Below the pieces are notes generated by a model. The model made no database searches and was not told the origin of the DNA. It worked only from the letters and a program-made list of their open reading frames with translations. Both the position numbers and the translations under genes were made by a program. Below are positions 11,774-63,265 of a stretch of 64,000 bases of DNA, piece by piece. Origin of the DNA: Desulfotomaculum nigrificans DSM 574. Lineage in GTDB: Bacteria > Bacillota > Desulfotomaculia > Desulfotomaculales > Desulfotomaculaceae. The DNA lies in assembly GCF_000189755.2 (NCBI RefSeq), contig NZ_KI912183.1:2780255-2844254 (forward strand). The letters run 5' to 3'. Each line of letters opens with the position of its first letter. Position 1 is the first letter of the stretch.

Positions 11774-11802
11774 AAATACAATGTTGTATTTTCTGGAAGG
11801 AG
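11774..11802 (+). promoter_or_regulatory. Hexaloop hairpin in alr leader resembling ANTAR P1
   Basis: AAATAC-AATGTT-GTATTT (11774-11791): a perfect 6-bp stem around a six-base loop with A1 and G4. The core ATACAATGTTGTAT is identical to the first hairpin before the ANTAR gene at 51106. No terminator follows; instead CTG-GAAGGAG-CAG (11793-11805) could hold the ribosome binding site in a loop. Could equally be a DNA operator. Confidence 0.4.
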
Positions 11803-12971: not shown

Positions 12972-13009
12972 AAGTTACCTGAGTGACCTTGTTTCCAGGG
13001 AGAGTGACT

Positions 13010-13585
13010 ATGCAGAGACGGTTAGTGATAGCCAGCGGAGACCCGCGGGAACTTGCACAATTGCGACAGATGTTAACCAGAAGCGGTTACCGGGTGGTGG
13101 CAGAGGCCCAAAACGGTATGGAGGCCCTCCAGGCTATTAGAGCTACTTTACCGGAAGTTGTTGTGTTGGACGACCGGTTGCCGGTTTTGGACGGTATGCA
13201 AGTGGCTAAAATTATCACGGAGGAAAACCTGGCGCCGGCGGTTTTGATGGTCTCCGTGGGCAACAAGGGCCTGGTGGAGCGGGCCAGGGATGTTACTGCC
13301 GCCTTTTTAATGCGTCCCTTTCTGGAAGACCAGGTTTATGCCGCTGTGGAAGTGGCTGCGTCTTCTTATAAAAGATTTAACCAATTACAGCAGCAACTTA
13401 ATGAGTTACAAGAAAAGCTTAAAGCCAGAAAAACCATCGAGAAAGCCAAGGGTATCTTAATGAAGCGAAGGGGTCTGTCAGAGGAGCAGGCCTACAAAGC
13501 TATGCAACAAACGGCCATGAAAAAACGCACCACCATGCAGGCTGTAGCCAAGGCGATAATTACAGCCTACGAAATGGGGGTGTGA
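13010..13585 (+). CDS. Response regulator with ANTAR RNA-binding output domain (first copy)
   Basis: 191 residues: receiver domain (1-120), coiled-coil linker (about 125-145, FNQLQQQLNELQEKLKA) and C-terminal ANTAR domain (about 140-190: EKAKGILMKRRGLSEEQAYK...AVAKAI). ANTAR dimers bind paired RNA hairpins and prevent transcription termination. The usual acceptor Asp is present (VVLDDRLP), but the conserved Lys before Pro is Arg (LMRPF), so control by phosphorylation is uncertain. ATG 13010 follows AGGGAGAG; an upstream GTG at 12983 lacks a site. Targets are inferred to be hairpin leaders like those at 45-61 kb. Confidence 0.9.
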   Translation: MQRRLVIASGDPRELAQLRQMLTRSGYRVVAEAQNGMEALQAIRATLPEVVVLDDRLPVLDGMQVAKIITEENLAPAVLMVSVGNKGLVERARDVTAAFLMRPFLEDQVYAAVEVAASSYKRFNQLQQQLNELQEKLKARKTIEKAKGILMKRRGLSEEQAYKAMQQTAMKKRTTMQAVAKAIITAYEMGV

Positions 13586-47206: not shown

Positions 47207-47787
47207 ATGTTTGGCAGGCGTGTACTACTGGCGGATCCGGATCCGGAGTTCAGGAGAAAATTAAAGGATTTGCTCCGGCAGCATGGTTATCTGGTGGTAG
47301 CAGAAGCTGAAGATGGGCGAAGCACCCTGCAGGCGGCCTTTCGAAGCCAGCCAGACTTGATTATTATGGAAGGGAAAATTCCCGGCAGCAAGGGGTTAGA
47401 AGTAGCCAGGTTGATTGAGGAAAACCGGCTGGCACCGGTGGTGCTGGTAACTTCCCATACCCACAGGGAACTAGTCGAGGAGGCCAAGTTCTCGTCTGTA
47501 TATGGTTACCTGACCAAGCCCATTGATGATAACAGCCTGATTCCCACCATTGAAATGGCTTTAGCTACTTTTAAAAGGTTAATCAGAATTGAAGAAGAGA
47601 ACCGCAAACTCAGAAAGAAATTGGAAGAGAAAACCCTGGTGGAACGGGCTAAAAGACTGCTGATGGAAAAAAAGGTTTAAGTGAACAGGTGGCACACCGC
47701 TACTTACAAAAAATAAGCATGGACCAGAGTTGTAGTTTAGCCAGGGTGGCCCAGCAGGTTATTTCATCCCTGACGAGAACCAGTTAG
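47207..47787 (+). CDS. Response regulator with ANTAR domain split by an A7 frameshift site
   Basis: Frame 0 gives 157 residues: receiver domain (1-120), linker helix, start of ANTAR (LVERAKRLLMEKK) and a stop at 47678-47680. The -1 frame entered at A_AAA_AAG (47668-47674) continues GLSEQVAHRYLQKISM and SLARVAQQVISSLTRTS to a stop at 47785, giving 193 residues and a normal ANTAR domain. The heptamer is in the correct phase for -1 slippage, and a GGTG/CACC hairpin follows. The receiver lacks the acceptor Asp (IIMEGKIPG has Glu there). Site GGGGTGA before ATG 47207. Divergent from asnB. Either programmed frameshift, real mutation or sequencing error. Confidence 0.8.
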
Positions 47788-47876: not shown

Positions 47877-47943
47877 GGGGCAAGGGCGTCCCAACGAGGC
47901 CTTTAAATATGTGAAAGGCCTGGTTGGGGCGCTTTTTTTTTTT
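47877..47943 (+). promoter_or_regulatory. Attenuator leader of the GS-like gene (one ANTAR-type hairpin)
   Basis: GGGGC-AAGGGC-GTCCC (47877-47892; loop A1, G4) overlaps terminator GCGTCCCAAC..GGCCTTT / AAAGGCC..GTTGGGGCGC (47886-47932) with eleven T. A matching first hairpin is not evident between the promoter and this hairpin. Confidence 0.6.
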
Positions 47944-50959: not shown

Positions 50960-50988
50960 TTGACTGCATCAAACTGTCGGTCTATAAT
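50960..50988 (+). promoter_or_regulatory. Promoter of second ANTAR gene
   Basis: TTGACT (50960-50965), exact 17-base spacer, TATAAT (50983-50988). Start point predicted near 50995. Confidence 0.85.
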
Positions 50989-51017
50989 TCTAAACAAATA
51001 GTTAGTTGAATATCAAT

Positions 51018-51086
51018 GGATACAATGTTGTATCCTATCACGGCAATGATGCCCAGGCAGGTCTTGTATACCTGTCTGGGTTTCTT
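51018..51086 (+). promoter_or_regulatory. ANTAR-type attenuator leader of the second ANTAR gene
   Basis: P1 GGATAC-AATGTT-GTATCC (51018-51035), P2 GGC-AATGAT-GCC (51042-51053), then terminator CCCAGGCAGG/CCTGTCTGGG (51052-51080) with a TTTCTTGTT tail. Both loops have A1 and G4; the P2 3' arm overlaps the terminator. This predicts autoregulation. The open frame from ATG 51016 runs through it and is not coding. Confidence 0.8.
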
Positions 51087-51105
51087 GTTGTTGTGGGGGG
51101 ATTCC

Positions 51106-51690
51106 GTGGCAAATCAACGAATAATTATTGTAGATACTGATGAAATATGGCGTAAGAACTTAAAAACCATGTTGGGTAAGCTGGGCTACCTGGTTGTGGG
51201 GGAAGCCTCTGATGGTCCTGGCGCACTAAAATTAGTGCGTACTCGGCACCCGGATTTACTAATTATTCATGATAACCTACCCGGCCTTAACGGCCTGGAG
51301 GTTGCCCGGATTCTATACGAAGATAAGCTGGCCCCGGTGGTCATAACCACCGATTACATCTGCCAGGATTTGATTGAAAAGGCCCGGGAGGCCAGAGTAT
51401 TTTCAGTCATGGTTAAACCCATTGAGGAAGCTGCTTTACTCCCCACGGTAGAATTGGCCCTGGGCAACTACCAGGAGATTATTAAGCTGGAGAAACAGGT
51501 TAAGGAACTAAAAGATACTCTGGAAACTCGTAAAATGGTTGAGAAGGCTAAGGGTATCTTAATGAAAACCATGGGCCTTAGCGAAGAGGAAGCCTTTAGA
51601 CGAATTCAACGGCAGAGTATGAATAAACGTATTTCCATGCGGGCGGTAGCCGAAGCGGTTATCCTGGCTCATAATATTAATCAAGACTAA
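51106..51690 (+). CDS. Response regulator with ANTAR RNA-binding output domain (second copy)
   Basis: 194 residues from GTG 51106 (GGGGGG upstream). Receiver (1-120) with IVDTDE acidic pocket and VMVKPIEE Lys-Pro, but the acceptor position is His (LLIIHDNLPG), so standard Asp phosphorylation is unlikely. Coiled-coil linker EIIKLEKQVKELKDTLE, then ANTAR (EKAKGILMKTMGLSEEEAFR, MRAVAEAVILAH). Expected to bind hairpin leaders of glnA, amt and others, and its own. Upstream ATG 51016 would add the leader hairpins and is rejected. glnA follows after 134 bp. Confidence 0.92.
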   Translation: MANQRIIIVDTDEIWRKNLKTMLGKLGYLVVGEASDGPGALKLVRTRHPDLLIIHDNLPGLNGLEVARILYEDKLAPVVITTDYICQDLIEKAREARVFSVMVKPIEEAALLPTVELALGNYQEIIKLEKQVKELKDTLETRKMVEKAKGILMKTMGLSEEEAFRRIQRQSMNKRISMRAVAEAVILAHNINQD

Positions 51691-51704: not shown

Positions 51705-51781
51705 TCACAATGTTGTGAACATCAGGCAATGGCGCCTTTTATCAAGGGAAATCCCTTCCCTTTTAAAAGGCGTTTATTTTT
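51705..51781 (+). promoter_or_regulatory. ANTAR-type attenuator leader of the first glnA
   Basis: P1 TCAC-AATGTT-GTGA (51705-51718), P2 AGGC-AATGGC-GCCT (51724-51737), then terminator CGCCTTTT/AAAAGGCG with inner AAGGGAA/TTCCCTT (51733-51772) and TTTATTTTT. Loops A1, G4 in both; P2 overlaps the terminator. No promoter of its own seen, so it probably gates read-through from the ANTAR gene. Confidence 0.8.
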
Positions 51782-53295: not shown

Positions 53296-53374
53296 TGCAC
53301 AACGGGGTGCAGAAAAGATAGGCGACGAAGCCTACAGCGGGTAAGTATTTTGGGTTACCTGTGTGTAGGCTTTT
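53296..53374 (+). promoter_or_regulatory. ANTAR-type attenuator leader of the second glnA
   Basis: P1 TGCAC-AACGGG-GTGCA (53296-53311), P2 TAGGC-GACGAA-GCCTA (53319-53334), then terminator AGCCTACA..GGGTAA / TTACCT..TGTAGGCT (53329-53371) and TTTT. The P2 3' arm lies within the terminator arm. Loop G4 in both; P2 has G at position 1. A TTGACT box at 53259-53264 suggests a promoter, but its -10 is unclear. Confidence 0.75.
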
Positions 53375-53427: not shown

Positions 53428-54762
53428 GTGGCCAAACTGACTAACGATGATGTTAGGCTGATGTGCAAAGAACTCAATGTAAAATTTATCCGCCTGCAGT
53501 TCACAGATATCTTTGGCGTACTAAAGAACGTAGCCATCCCAGTAGAGCAGTTGGATAAAGCATTGAACGGGGAATTAATGTTTGACGGGTCTTCCATCGA
53601 AGGATTTGTTCGTATTGAGGAATCTGATATGTACCTTCGCCCAGACCCCAACAGCTTTGTAGTGTTCCCCTGGAAATCCCGGGAAAGTGCAGTGGCCCGT
53701 CTGATTTGTGATATTTATAATCATGATGGAACTCCTTTTATCGGTGATCCTCGTTATGCGCTGCGGAGGGCCATTGCTGAAGCCGAGGAAATGGGTTACA
53801 CGATGAATGTAGGACCCGAGGCTGAGTTCTTTCTCTTCCACGTGGATGCTGATGGCCGCCCCACCACCAAAACCCACGATAAGGCTGGTTACTTTGATAT
53901 GACTCCCATCGACCTGGGTGAAGATGCCCGGCGGGATATGGTCTTAACCCTGGAACAGATGGGATTTGAAATAGAAGCTTCTCACCACGAGGTGGCTCCC
54001 GGTCAGCACGAAATTGATTTCAAATATTCCGATGCTTTGACCGCCGCTGACAATATTGTTACCTTTAAGCTGGCTGTGCGCACCATTGCTCAGCGTCATG
54101 GCCTGCACGCCACCTTTATGCCGAAACCTGTTTTTGGTATGGCCGGTTCCGGCATGCACCTGAACCAATCTTTAATTACTAAAGACGGTCGTAATGCCTT
54201 TTATGATCCCAACGCTCCCATCGGTATGAGTGAAATTAGTATGAACTATATTGCCGGGCTGATGAACCACATTGGCGCTATTACTGCTATAATCAATCCC
54301 ACCGTAAACTCCTATAAACGGCTGGTATCAGGTTATGAAGCGCCCGTTTATGTAGCCTGGTCTTCCCGTAACAGGAGTCCCTTAATCCGTATTCCGGCTA
54401 AACGAGGTATGTCCACCCGGATTGAATTGCGGAGTCCCGATCCCTCCTGTAACCCCTACCTGGCACTGGCGGTTTGCCTGAAGGCCGGTTTGGACGGGAT
54501 AAAAAAAGGAATGGTTCCACCGCCGCCCTGCGACAGAAACATTTACGAAATGACTGCAAGCGAGCGGCAGGAACTGGGTATCAGCAGCCTGCCTGAGAAC
54601 TTGTCCGAAGCGTTAAAATGTTTAACCGCCGATGAAGTTATTAAAGAAGCCTTAGGCCCCCATATTTATGACCGCTTTATCGAGGCCAAGAGCATAGAGT
54701 GGGATAGATATCGGATGCAGGTTAGCCCCTGGGAGCTGGAAGAATATCTGACCAAGTTTTAA
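53428..54762 (+). CDS. glnA: Glutamine synthetase, GSI-alpha (second copy)
   Basis: 444 residues, closely similar along its length to the first copy. Same catalytic set: [72 protein letters not shown] start at 53428 with AGAAGGGTG upstream. Separate leader from the first copy, so the two can be expressed independently. Differences such as PECE/PEAE and the 236-246 region might alter feedback control. Confidence 0.97.
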
Positions 54763-59599: not shown

Positions 59600-61084
59600 A
59601 TGGGTAAACCTACCGGATTTATGGAATACGACAGAGAAACAGCCGCTGATCGTGCTCCCCTGGAGCGCATCAATGATTGGCAGGAGTTCTACAATGGGTT
59701 ACCGGAAGAAAAGCTAAGAACACAGGCTGCCCGCTGCATGGAGTGCGGTACTCCCTTTTGTCACAGCGGGATGATGATTAACGGGGTGGCTTCAGGCTGC
59801 CCCAACCATAACTTGCCCCCGGAGTGGAATGATTTAGTTTACCGGGGCTTGTGGAAGGAAGCTCTGGACCGTCTTTTAAAGACTAATAATTTTCCGGAGT
59901 TCACCGGCAGGGTTTGCCCGGCCCTGTGTGAGGGTGCCTGCACGGAGGGACTGATTGGTTCACCCGTTACCATAAAAAGCATTGAACGGGCCATTATTGA
60001 CCGGGCCTTTGCCGAGGGATGGATCAAACCGCAGCCTCCGGCCAAACGCACTGGCAAAAAAGTTGCAGTGGTGGGTTCAGGGCCTGCCGGATTGGCCTGT
60101 GCGGCCCAGCTGAATAAAGCCGGCCACTGGGTGACTGTGTTTGAACGGGCGGATAGAATCGGCGGGCTGTTAATGTATGGCATTCCTAATATGAAGCTGG
60201 ATAAGCGGTACGTGCAAAGACGGGTTGACCTAATGGCCGCCGAAGGTGTTGAGTTTGTGACTAATACTGAAGTGGGTAAGGATTATCCCGCTGATAAACT
60301 ACTTAGGGAATTTGACGCGGTGGTTCTCTGCGGGGGCGCTACCAAACCGCGCGACCTGGCTGTGGAAGGGCGCCATCTCAAGGGTATTCACTTTGCCGTG
60401 GAATTCCTCAGTGCCAATACCAGAAGCCTGTTGGATTCTAACCATCAGGACGGAAAATTTATTTCCGCCGCCGGCAAAGATGTGATAGTCATAGGTGGTG
60501 GTGACACCGGAACCGACTGTGTTGGCACGGCTTTACGTCATAAGTGTAAGAGTGTGGTGCAGTTTGAAATTATGCCCCAGCTTCCTTTGCAGCGCAGTGC
60601 CAATAACCCCTGGCCCCAGTACCCAAGAGTACACAAAGTTGATTACGGCCAGCAAGAGGCAACCGCCCTTTATGGGGATGACCCGCGGCAGTATTGCATC
60701 ATGACCAAAAGAATTGTGGGGGACGAACAGGGACAGGTAAAAGAAGTGCATACCGTTAATGTTGAATGGGTAAAGAATGACCAGGGACGTATGGTGCCCA
60801 GGGAAGTTCCCGGATCCGAAAAGGTTTGGCCTGCTCAACTGGTACTTTTGGCTATGGGCTTTACCGGCCCCGAAGACACCCTGCTTGACCAGCTGGGCGT
60901 GGAACGTGATCAACGCACTAACGCCAAGGCGGAATATGGGAAGTTTGCCACCAATATAAAAGGGGTATTTGCTGCCGGGGATATGCGCCGGGGGCAAAGT
61001 CTGGTGATCTGGGCTATCAATGAAGGACGGGGTGCAGCACGGGAGTGCGACCGTTATTTGATGGGTTCTACCAATCTTTTGTAA
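59600..61084 (+). CDS. gltD: Glutamate synthase small subunit
   Basis: Supplies electrons from NAD(P)H to GltB through FAD and [4Fe-4S] centres. 494 residues. N-terminal Cys motifs [14 protein letters not shown] and [22 protein letters not shown]-binding [22 protein letters not shown](P)H-binding [19 protein letters not shown]-terminal [25 protein letters not shown] 59587-59592. Starts 29 bp after gltB: one operon. Confidence 0.97.
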
Positions 61085-61148
61085 TGCCCGGAACTGCTGA
61101 TATGGAAAGTGCTTTTAACAAGTATACAGAATTTCTGGTGTTTGATCA

Positions 61149-61177
61149 TTGCCATAACCGGCAAGACCGACTATAAT
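61149..61177 (+). promoter_or_regulatory. Promoter of the amt-glnB unit
   Basis: TTGCCA (61149-61154), exact 17-base spacer, TATAAT (61172-61177). Transcript start near 61184, leaving a leader of about 330 nt. Confidence 0.8.
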
Positions 61178-61190
61178 ATGAATATAGCAA

Positions 61191-61265
61191 GGAAGCAATG
61201 ATGCATCCAAGAAATGCCAACGGAGGCCCAATGTTTGTCAGCGCAAACATTGGGCCTGTTGTTTT
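61191..61265 (+). promoter_or_regulatory. ANTAR-type attenuator leader of amt, module 1
   Basis: P1 GGAAGC-AATGAT-GCATCC (61191-61208, one A/A mismatch), P2 GCC-AACGGA-GGC (61216-61227), then terminator GGCCCAATGTTTG/CAAACATTGGGCC (61225-61256, perfect 13 bp) and TGTTGTTTTT. Loops A1, G4 in both; P2 3' arm inside the terminator. Confidence 0.8.
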
Positions 61266-61274
61266 TAAGTAGAT

Positions 61275-61355
61275 AAAACACAAAGATGTGTTTTAAGCAA
61301 AGGTGCTTGGTTTAAGGGAAGCTGAACTTTTCTTGAACCAGGCACCTTTCTTTTT
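61275..61355 (+). promoter_or_regulatory. ANTAR-type attenuator leader of amt, module 2
   Basis: P1 AAAACAC-AAAGAT-GTGTTTT (61275-61294), P2 AAGC-AAAGGT-GCTT (61295-61308), then an 18-bp terminator (61299-61316 with 61332-61349, two G-U pairs) and CTTTTT. Loops A1, G4 in both; P2 lies within the terminator arm. A complete second switch in series with module 1. Confidence 0.8.
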
Positions 61356-61361
61356 AGCATA

Positions 61362-61450
61362 TCGGAAAGATAAACTTTCCGACATGCACAAGGGCAACTA
61401 AGGTTGCCGCCGACGCCCCAAGGGCTTGGCGCCAACCAAGTTTTCTTTGG
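61362..61450 (+). promoter_or_regulatory. Third hairpin cluster in the amt leader
   Basis: TCGGAAAG-ATAAA-CTTTCCGA, GGCAAC-TAAG-GTTGCC, CCAA-GGGC-TTGG and CTTGG/CCAAG followed by TTTTCTTT (61425-61448). Terminator-like at the end, but loops do not follow the A1/G4 six-base rule. Confidence 0.45.
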
Positions 61451-61515
61451 AAGCCTTCTGGAAAAAGGGTACCCACAGATGGTTTCAAATAAAAAATTAT
61501 ACGAGGAGTGGTAAC

Positions 61516-63265
<1,750 letters not shown>

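Follow-up and report, generated by a model that had tools for sequence, protein, structure and literature searches.

The amt-PII locus and its leader

The DNA analysed here, referred to below as the window, is a stretch of 64,000 nucleotides from Desulfotomaculum nigrificans DSM 574, whose genome (G000) is one contig of 3,052,787 bases. The last 14 kb of the window carry glnA, genes of the gltB/gltD type and then amt and a PII gene; glnA and gltD are names that we presume from the sequences. The ammonium transporter gene amt (61516-62892) matches Pfam family PF00909 and is followed by a PII gene of the glnK/glnB type (62894-63265; Pfam PF00543), whose open reading frame as listed begins further 5'. 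In the leader, 61085-61515, we found in 5' to 3' order a promoter, two ANTAR-type modules (module 1, 61191-61266, and module 2, 61275-61355), a 93-bp repeat, an amt-proximal hairpin, a Shine-Dalgarno sequence and the ATG of amt. These features, like both genes, lie on the plus strand.

The predicted promoter, TTGCCA-17-TATAAT (61149-61177), has 11 of 12 consensus matches, and comparable TTGYCA...TATAAT sites stand upstream of module 1 in relatives. It was the sole sigma-70-like site found by consensus scan on both strands of 60900-61600, a scan with limited power against a promoter located inside module 1. Only 8 nt separate the end of the T tract of module 1 from the P1 hairpin of module 2, so there is no room for a second promoter between the modules. 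Assuming a start about 7 nt after the -10 box, the predicted terminated RNAs measure approximately 83 and 172 nt, in agreement with the short RNAs of 75-85 and 165-175 nt that an earlier, sequence-only reading of this DNA had forecast.

Two ANTAR-type modules in series

In module 1, the P1 hexaloop hairpin GGAAGC[AATGAT]GCATCC (61191-61208) has an A.A mismatch as its third pair and just two pairs above it. The P2 hexaloop hairpin GCC[AACGGA]GGC (61216-61227) overlaps terminator 1, which with its T tract occupies 61224-61266 and has a stem of 15 bp (61224-61257). Module 2 has a fully paired P1, AAAACAC[AAAGAT]GTGTTTT (61275-61294), directly followed by P2, AAGC[AAAGGT]GCTT (61295-61308), and the latter overlaps terminator 2 (61299-61355 with the T tract; stem 61299-61349, at least 20 bp). 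The earlier reading had assigned 13 and 18 bp to these stems, too few in both cases. In each module P2 lies within the 5' arm of the terminator, and the two folds are mutually exclusive.

All four hexaloops carry A at position 1 and G at position 4. Among relatives, G replaces A at the first loop position in one module 1 P1 loop of eight species and in some module 2 loops. The closing C-G pair of P1 and P2 was fixed in 8/8 species in both module alignments, and the hairpins of both modules have, as ANTAR RNAs do, three or more base pairs per stem. There was little covariation in the P1 and P2 stems of either alignment (8 species each), as their sequences are nearly invariant. The terminators, on the other hand, vary in a paired fashion. 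For terminator 1, 92.8% of cells in the 8-species alignment were paired and two-sided changes occurred at 7 of 14 pairs; two-sided cells numbered 20 against a shuffle mean of 7.9, and none of 500 shuffles scored as high, although the number of two-sided pairs was matched in 33 of 500. For terminator 2, 87.6% were paired, with two-sided changes at 10 of 23 pairs (0/500 shuffles). Judged by these alignments, each terminator is maintained by compensatory changes across eight species of the genus and family. Anatomy, conservation and shuffled controls thus bear out the earlier description of two ANTAR-type modules in series after one promoter, with P2 overlapping the terminators.

The modules are not alike. 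The third P1 pair of module 1 is unpaired in 8/8 species and module 2 P1 has no such mismatch; P2 is GCC[..]GGC in module 1 and AGC[..]GCT in module 2, and these differences are consistent across relatives. Because the mismatch is present in every module 1 and absent from module 2, the modules are distinct lineages and not a fresh duplication. We also built a dual-hexaloop ANTAR model of 33 positions from 18 modules. Module 2 was its top match genome-wide, although it is itself among the 18 seeds; module 1 was not recovered when the model was searched against the whole genome. Both its P1 mismatch and its being missed by the ANTAR model set module 1 apart from the ANTAR consensus, which counts against the ANTAR reading.

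ANTAR regulators and other ANTAR elements

The genus carries three orthologous groups of ANTAR response regulators: A adjoins glnA1, B adjoins amt in several relatives and C adjoins a third glnA-like gene. There are three ANTAR matches in the window's genome, two of them with intact frames, and the three genes of the window are all on the plus strand. The gene for regulator A (antarA, 51016-51690) is intact; its true start is probably further downstream, since a leader module falls within the 5' end of the open reading frame. That module is an ANTAR attenuator upstream of antarA (51018-51081, plus strand), and a second one (51705-51780, plus strand) stands between antarA and glnA1, the antarA stop codon being 15 nt upstream of it. 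The lone promoter-like site there with 11 of 12 matches is at 50960-50988, 5' of antarA. Because this single strong site precedes both attenuators, glnA1 is probably read through two gates too, and the suggestion that amt-PII expression would be steeper than that of glnA falls away, as glnA1 is likewise behind two attenuators.

Regulator B (12983-13585) is intact and orthologous to an ANTAR gene found next to amt in some of the relatives, but here it lies about 48 kb from amt. Immediately 5' of the alr ribosome site, ahead of alr and ANTAR B, stands a lone ANTAR-type hexaloop hairpin (11775-11790), which might work at the level of translation. The frame of regulator C (47209-47780) is broken at a run of A and is intact in most relatives. 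Before the third glnA-like gene, at 47877-47892, we observed a single-hexaloop attenuator, GGGGC[AAGGGC]GTCCC, with a terminator of 19-24 bp and without P1, which also follows ANTAR C in relatives. A dual-hairpin ANTAR-like element at 53296-53334, in which the P2 loop starts with G and not A, precedes the glnA gene at 53428.

Outside the window, the ANTAR model gave two non-seed matches, each accompanied by a terminator: one (E 1.9e-4; L242, G000:C1:844503-844536) is upstream of a urea-transporter-like gene, the other (E 0.086; L243, G000:C1:841182-841219) upstream of nifH and a PII gene. On sequence evidence this is a nitrogen regulon, and among the leaders examined adjacent double modules are found at amt only.

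The existence of several regulators bears on whether each module answers to an ANTAR protein of its own (module 1 to B and module 2 to A, for instance), both of which would be needed for amt. The three orthologous groups in the genus, the fact that ANTAR B immediately precedes module 1 and amt in several relatives, and the consistent differences between the modules (the P1 mismatch; the two P2 types) all speak for such a logical AND, which had been proposed earlier. Two intact ANTAR genes are present here, so the proposal stands to that extent for this genome, but they are just two and B is distant from amt. Nor does it hold in general: of the 17 genomes in which a lone ANTAR gene goes together with an orthologous amt leader, two or three attenuators were counted in 7. 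We therefore regard a requirement for two proteins as unlikely.

Serial attenuators across the order

Among 113 genomes of the order, an amt match was found in 87 and an ANTAR match in 99. For 84 orthologous amt genes, with partial genes lacking a start excluded, the leader was taken as at most 600 nt of upstream sequence; for amt paralogs, the leaders of a subset of 27 more distant genes were used. All were scanned strictly, with P2 closed by C-G and a terminator of at least 11 pairs plus a T tract. The scanner undercounts P1, the window's own module 2 P1 being an example, and misses P1s where stems merge. On these terms 15 orthologous leaders had no attenuator, 34 had one, 30 had two and 5 had three (n=84); P1 and P2 were both recognised in no module of 48 leaders, in one module of 24 and in two of 12. 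Counted per genome (n=77), the numbers were none in 13, one in 31, two in 28 and three in 5, and in the paralog leaders (n=27) none in 5, one in 18 and two in 4. In 252 shuffled amt leaders the scanner found no attenuator in 247, one in 5 and two never, and not a single full P1+P2 module. The first collection scan gave one full module among the leaders of 80 distant amt loci. Some upstream attenuators may serve an intervening gene, as in G006.

Two genomes of the order have amt without an ANTAR match. In G081 (96% complete) the amt leader has no attenuator, which favours the ANTAR-attenuator reading; in G099 (64% complete) it has one, which counts against that reading.

In G006, module 1 precedes PII and another attenuator separates PII from amt, an arrangement that suggests how a double leader could have arisen. 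Each ancestral gene may have had its own attenuator, the loss or movement of PII leaving two modules without a function of their own; in G007, too, PII is upstream of amt with later attenuators following PII, and in the window PII is downstream of amt. Yet amt is behind two gates in either arrangement, compensatory changes persist in both terminators where PII is not in the middle, and two-gate amt leaders were seen in several families of the order. That the pair is only a relic of operon rearrangement is thus somewhat unlikely.

In G004 and G005 single-hexaloop attenuators follow a full module, and the G009 leader is alike by eye. Such leaders are compatible with a relay: the ANTAR dimer would be loaded at the first full module and passed on to a hexaloop further downstream, so that later attenuators could drop P1. 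The EutV structure paper (PMC8934654) proposes that P1 and then P2 are bound successively. The third glnA, however, is likewise preceded by single-hexaloop attenuators, and upstream of these no full module was detected by the scan; the P1 detector, too, overlooks some true P1s, including that of module 2 in the window. We consider a relay distinctly improbable.

Proposed working of the serial gates

Our preferred reading, to which we assign a probability of about 0.82, is that one promoter drives the amt-PII operon through two serial ANTAR-controlled transcription attenuators, the operon's expression being the product of the two readthroughs. When no active (phosphorylated, dimeric) ANTAR regulator is present, each P2 would be swallowed by its terminator and the polymerase would halt at about 83 or 172 nt. 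Under nitrogen shortage, an ANTAR dimer would grip the hexaloop hairpins and both terminators would be blocked. The output of amt would then equal the product of two readthrough probabilities, the main benefit being very little leak and a broad range. The sequence elements, their conservation and compensatory changes, their serial order and the presence of ANTAR proteins are observed; that a protein binds, that it is phosphorylated, that it follows a nitrogen signal and that one regulator serves both gates we infer.

In a product model with readthrough of 0.1 in the off state and 0.9 in the on state, a second gate lowers the leak from 0.1 to 0.01 and raises the range from 9 to 81. The Hill number moves from 1.00 to 1.13 or, with second-order binding, from 2.00 to 2.25. 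Because the Hill number barely rises over this gain in range, series gating would give tightness more than steepness. Multiplied repression, as first suggested for this leader, is the best reading of the sequence, and the arrangement is conserved; on the product model its gain would be chiefly in leak and range and little in steepness. Throughout the order, ANTAR attenuators appear to be used in series as an established design, and both leak multiplication and any protein hand-over are thereby open to direct test.

A dispersed repeat and a conserved amt-proximal hairpin

Between module 2 and the amt-proximal hairpin lies a dispersed repeat of approximately 93 bp, GCATATCGG...TTTTCTTTG (61357-61449, plus strand). 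The DNA of 61350-61450 has 27-29 matches in its own genome, and aligned copies have identical ends, GCATATCGG...TTTTCTTTG. Five of 10 family genomes carry the repeat (27, 30, 3, 42 and 12 matches). At the amt leader it is absent in 9/9 relatives, including G001, G002, G006 and G008, which are carriers at other sites. Of 10 copies inspected by eye, 6 stand directly after a clear terminator hairpin and T tract, as at amt, where the repeat is placed downstream of both gates. It is of a mobile type, with an apparent preference for terminators.

This repeat is what the sequence-only reading had listed as a third terminator-like hairpin cluster. The copy in the amt leader does fold strongly (z -7.8), but we rejected it as a third attenuator or rho-independent terminator, as it is dispersed and missing at this site in nine relatives. 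A terminator scan of the window leader did not call the 61357-61449 cluster among its terminators.

The amt-proximal hairpin (61449-61486, plus strand) carries GGGTACCC in its loop. Most leaders of the order have a long hairpin downstream of their last terminator and ahead of the amt start codon. One of the palindromes GGCGCC, GGTACC or GGGCCC was present 10-175 nt 5' of the hit start in 57/84 orthologous leaders, against 12.8% expected from shuffles, and in 6/27 paralog leaders against 13.3% expected. Nine orthologous leaders with the palindrome in ANTAR elements or elsewhere were removed by eye. The 48 kept had GGCGCC (37), GGTACC (10, all from the window's family) or GGGCCC (1). In a free fold the hexamer lay in a hairpin loop in 19/48 (1.4% with shuffled flanks) and, when held unpaired, in 41/48 (32% with shuffled flanks). 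In one family of the order, amt seems to be preceded by a short TTG-started frame that has a separate ribosome site, in the position taken by the hairpin elsewhere (L161, L173, L177, L180, L181 and L184-L186).

In an alignment of 15 sequences with the outer stem, two-sided changes were found at 16 of 22 pairs, a score reached by 0/500 shuffles. The covariance model built from these 15 gave 20 coding-strand sites and one weak partial site (G026), in 18 of 113 genomes. All but one of the sites were within leaders already collected via amt and were mostly seeds of the model; the remaining one (G098) is upstream of an apparent decayed PII gene. Searched against 398 genomes of the phylum, the model, which is blind to amt, returned one seed, one weak match that we do not trust, and a match directly 5' of an ammonium transporter in another family of the phylum (G419, E 3.7e-4). 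It gave no match among 80 distant amt loci, nor in the window's own family, where the loop is longer (GGGTACCC). That the hairpin of the window's family and the modelled hairpin are one element is our judgement from place, shape and palindrome, and the copy in the window folds only moderately (z -1.9 relative to plain shuffles).

A search of Rfam gave no match at gathering score to the amt-proximal hairpin in the window leader and no cis-regulatory family in the whole window. For the leaders of 20 relatives, only two matches were listed at E of 0.5 or less, both below gathering score.

We suggest, tentatively and with more doubt than confidence, that the hairpin is a third, previously undescribed regulatory RNA peculiar to amt mRNAs of the order: a long covarying hairpin with a 7-10 nt loop bearing a self-complementary GGCGCC, GGUACC or GGGCCC, in which kissing (amt with amt or with another loop) or the binding of a protein or ligand would, once the ANTAR gates are open, govern how well amt is translated or how stable its mRNA is. 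The palindromic loop is suggestive of loop-loop pairing, for which the HIV-1 dimer loop offers a comparison. All three loop types are palindromic; however, they represent only two changes of the central pair, and the chance of staying palindromic is not small. A conserved, unnamed hairpin of amt leaders can in any case now be told apart from the mobile repeat that obscured it.

Comparison with known systems

Ramesh et al. 2012 (PMC3369931) cover ANTAR dual-hexaloop antiterminator RNAs, including those of EutV/eut, NasR/nasF and AmiR/amiE, and place such RNAs ahead of nitrogen genes, ammonium transporters among them, in related species of Desulfotomaculum. For D. acetoxidans that paper gives at least 13 ANTAR elements spread over six transcription units, and these numbers already imply several ANTAR RNAs per unit. 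Serial ANTAR attenuators before amt are real and conserved, and ANTAR RNAs before ammonium transporters have been in print since 2012. Adjacent ANTAR attenuators acting in series were not discussed in the portions of the literature searched.

Like the RNAs of PMC3369931, each module of the amt leader combines two A1/G4 hexaloop hairpins with an intrinsic terminator that P2 overlaps; unlike them, the leader has two complete modules before one gene and a fixed P1 mismatch in module 1. The antarA-glnA1 stretch resembles eut of Enterococcus faecalis, in which the terminators stand before different genes, whereas the amt attenuators are adjacent within one leader. There are four such ANTAR terminators within the one eut locus (PMC3369931). 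The conserved single-hexaloop attenuators that precede amt and glnA3 in the genus, with their long terminators, fit the EutV one-hexaloop site of PMC8934654; that paper proposes single sites where polymerase timing is irrelevant, while the single sites of the genus overlap terminators. In cyanobacteria, the tandem layout of glnA RNAs is tied to more digital regulation in PMC2864571. The amt leader shares with these RNAs and with tandem riboswitches the repetition of control elements, but those are of metabolite type and not protein-read attenuators. Set beside these systems, the amt-proximal hairpin is the component most likely to be new.
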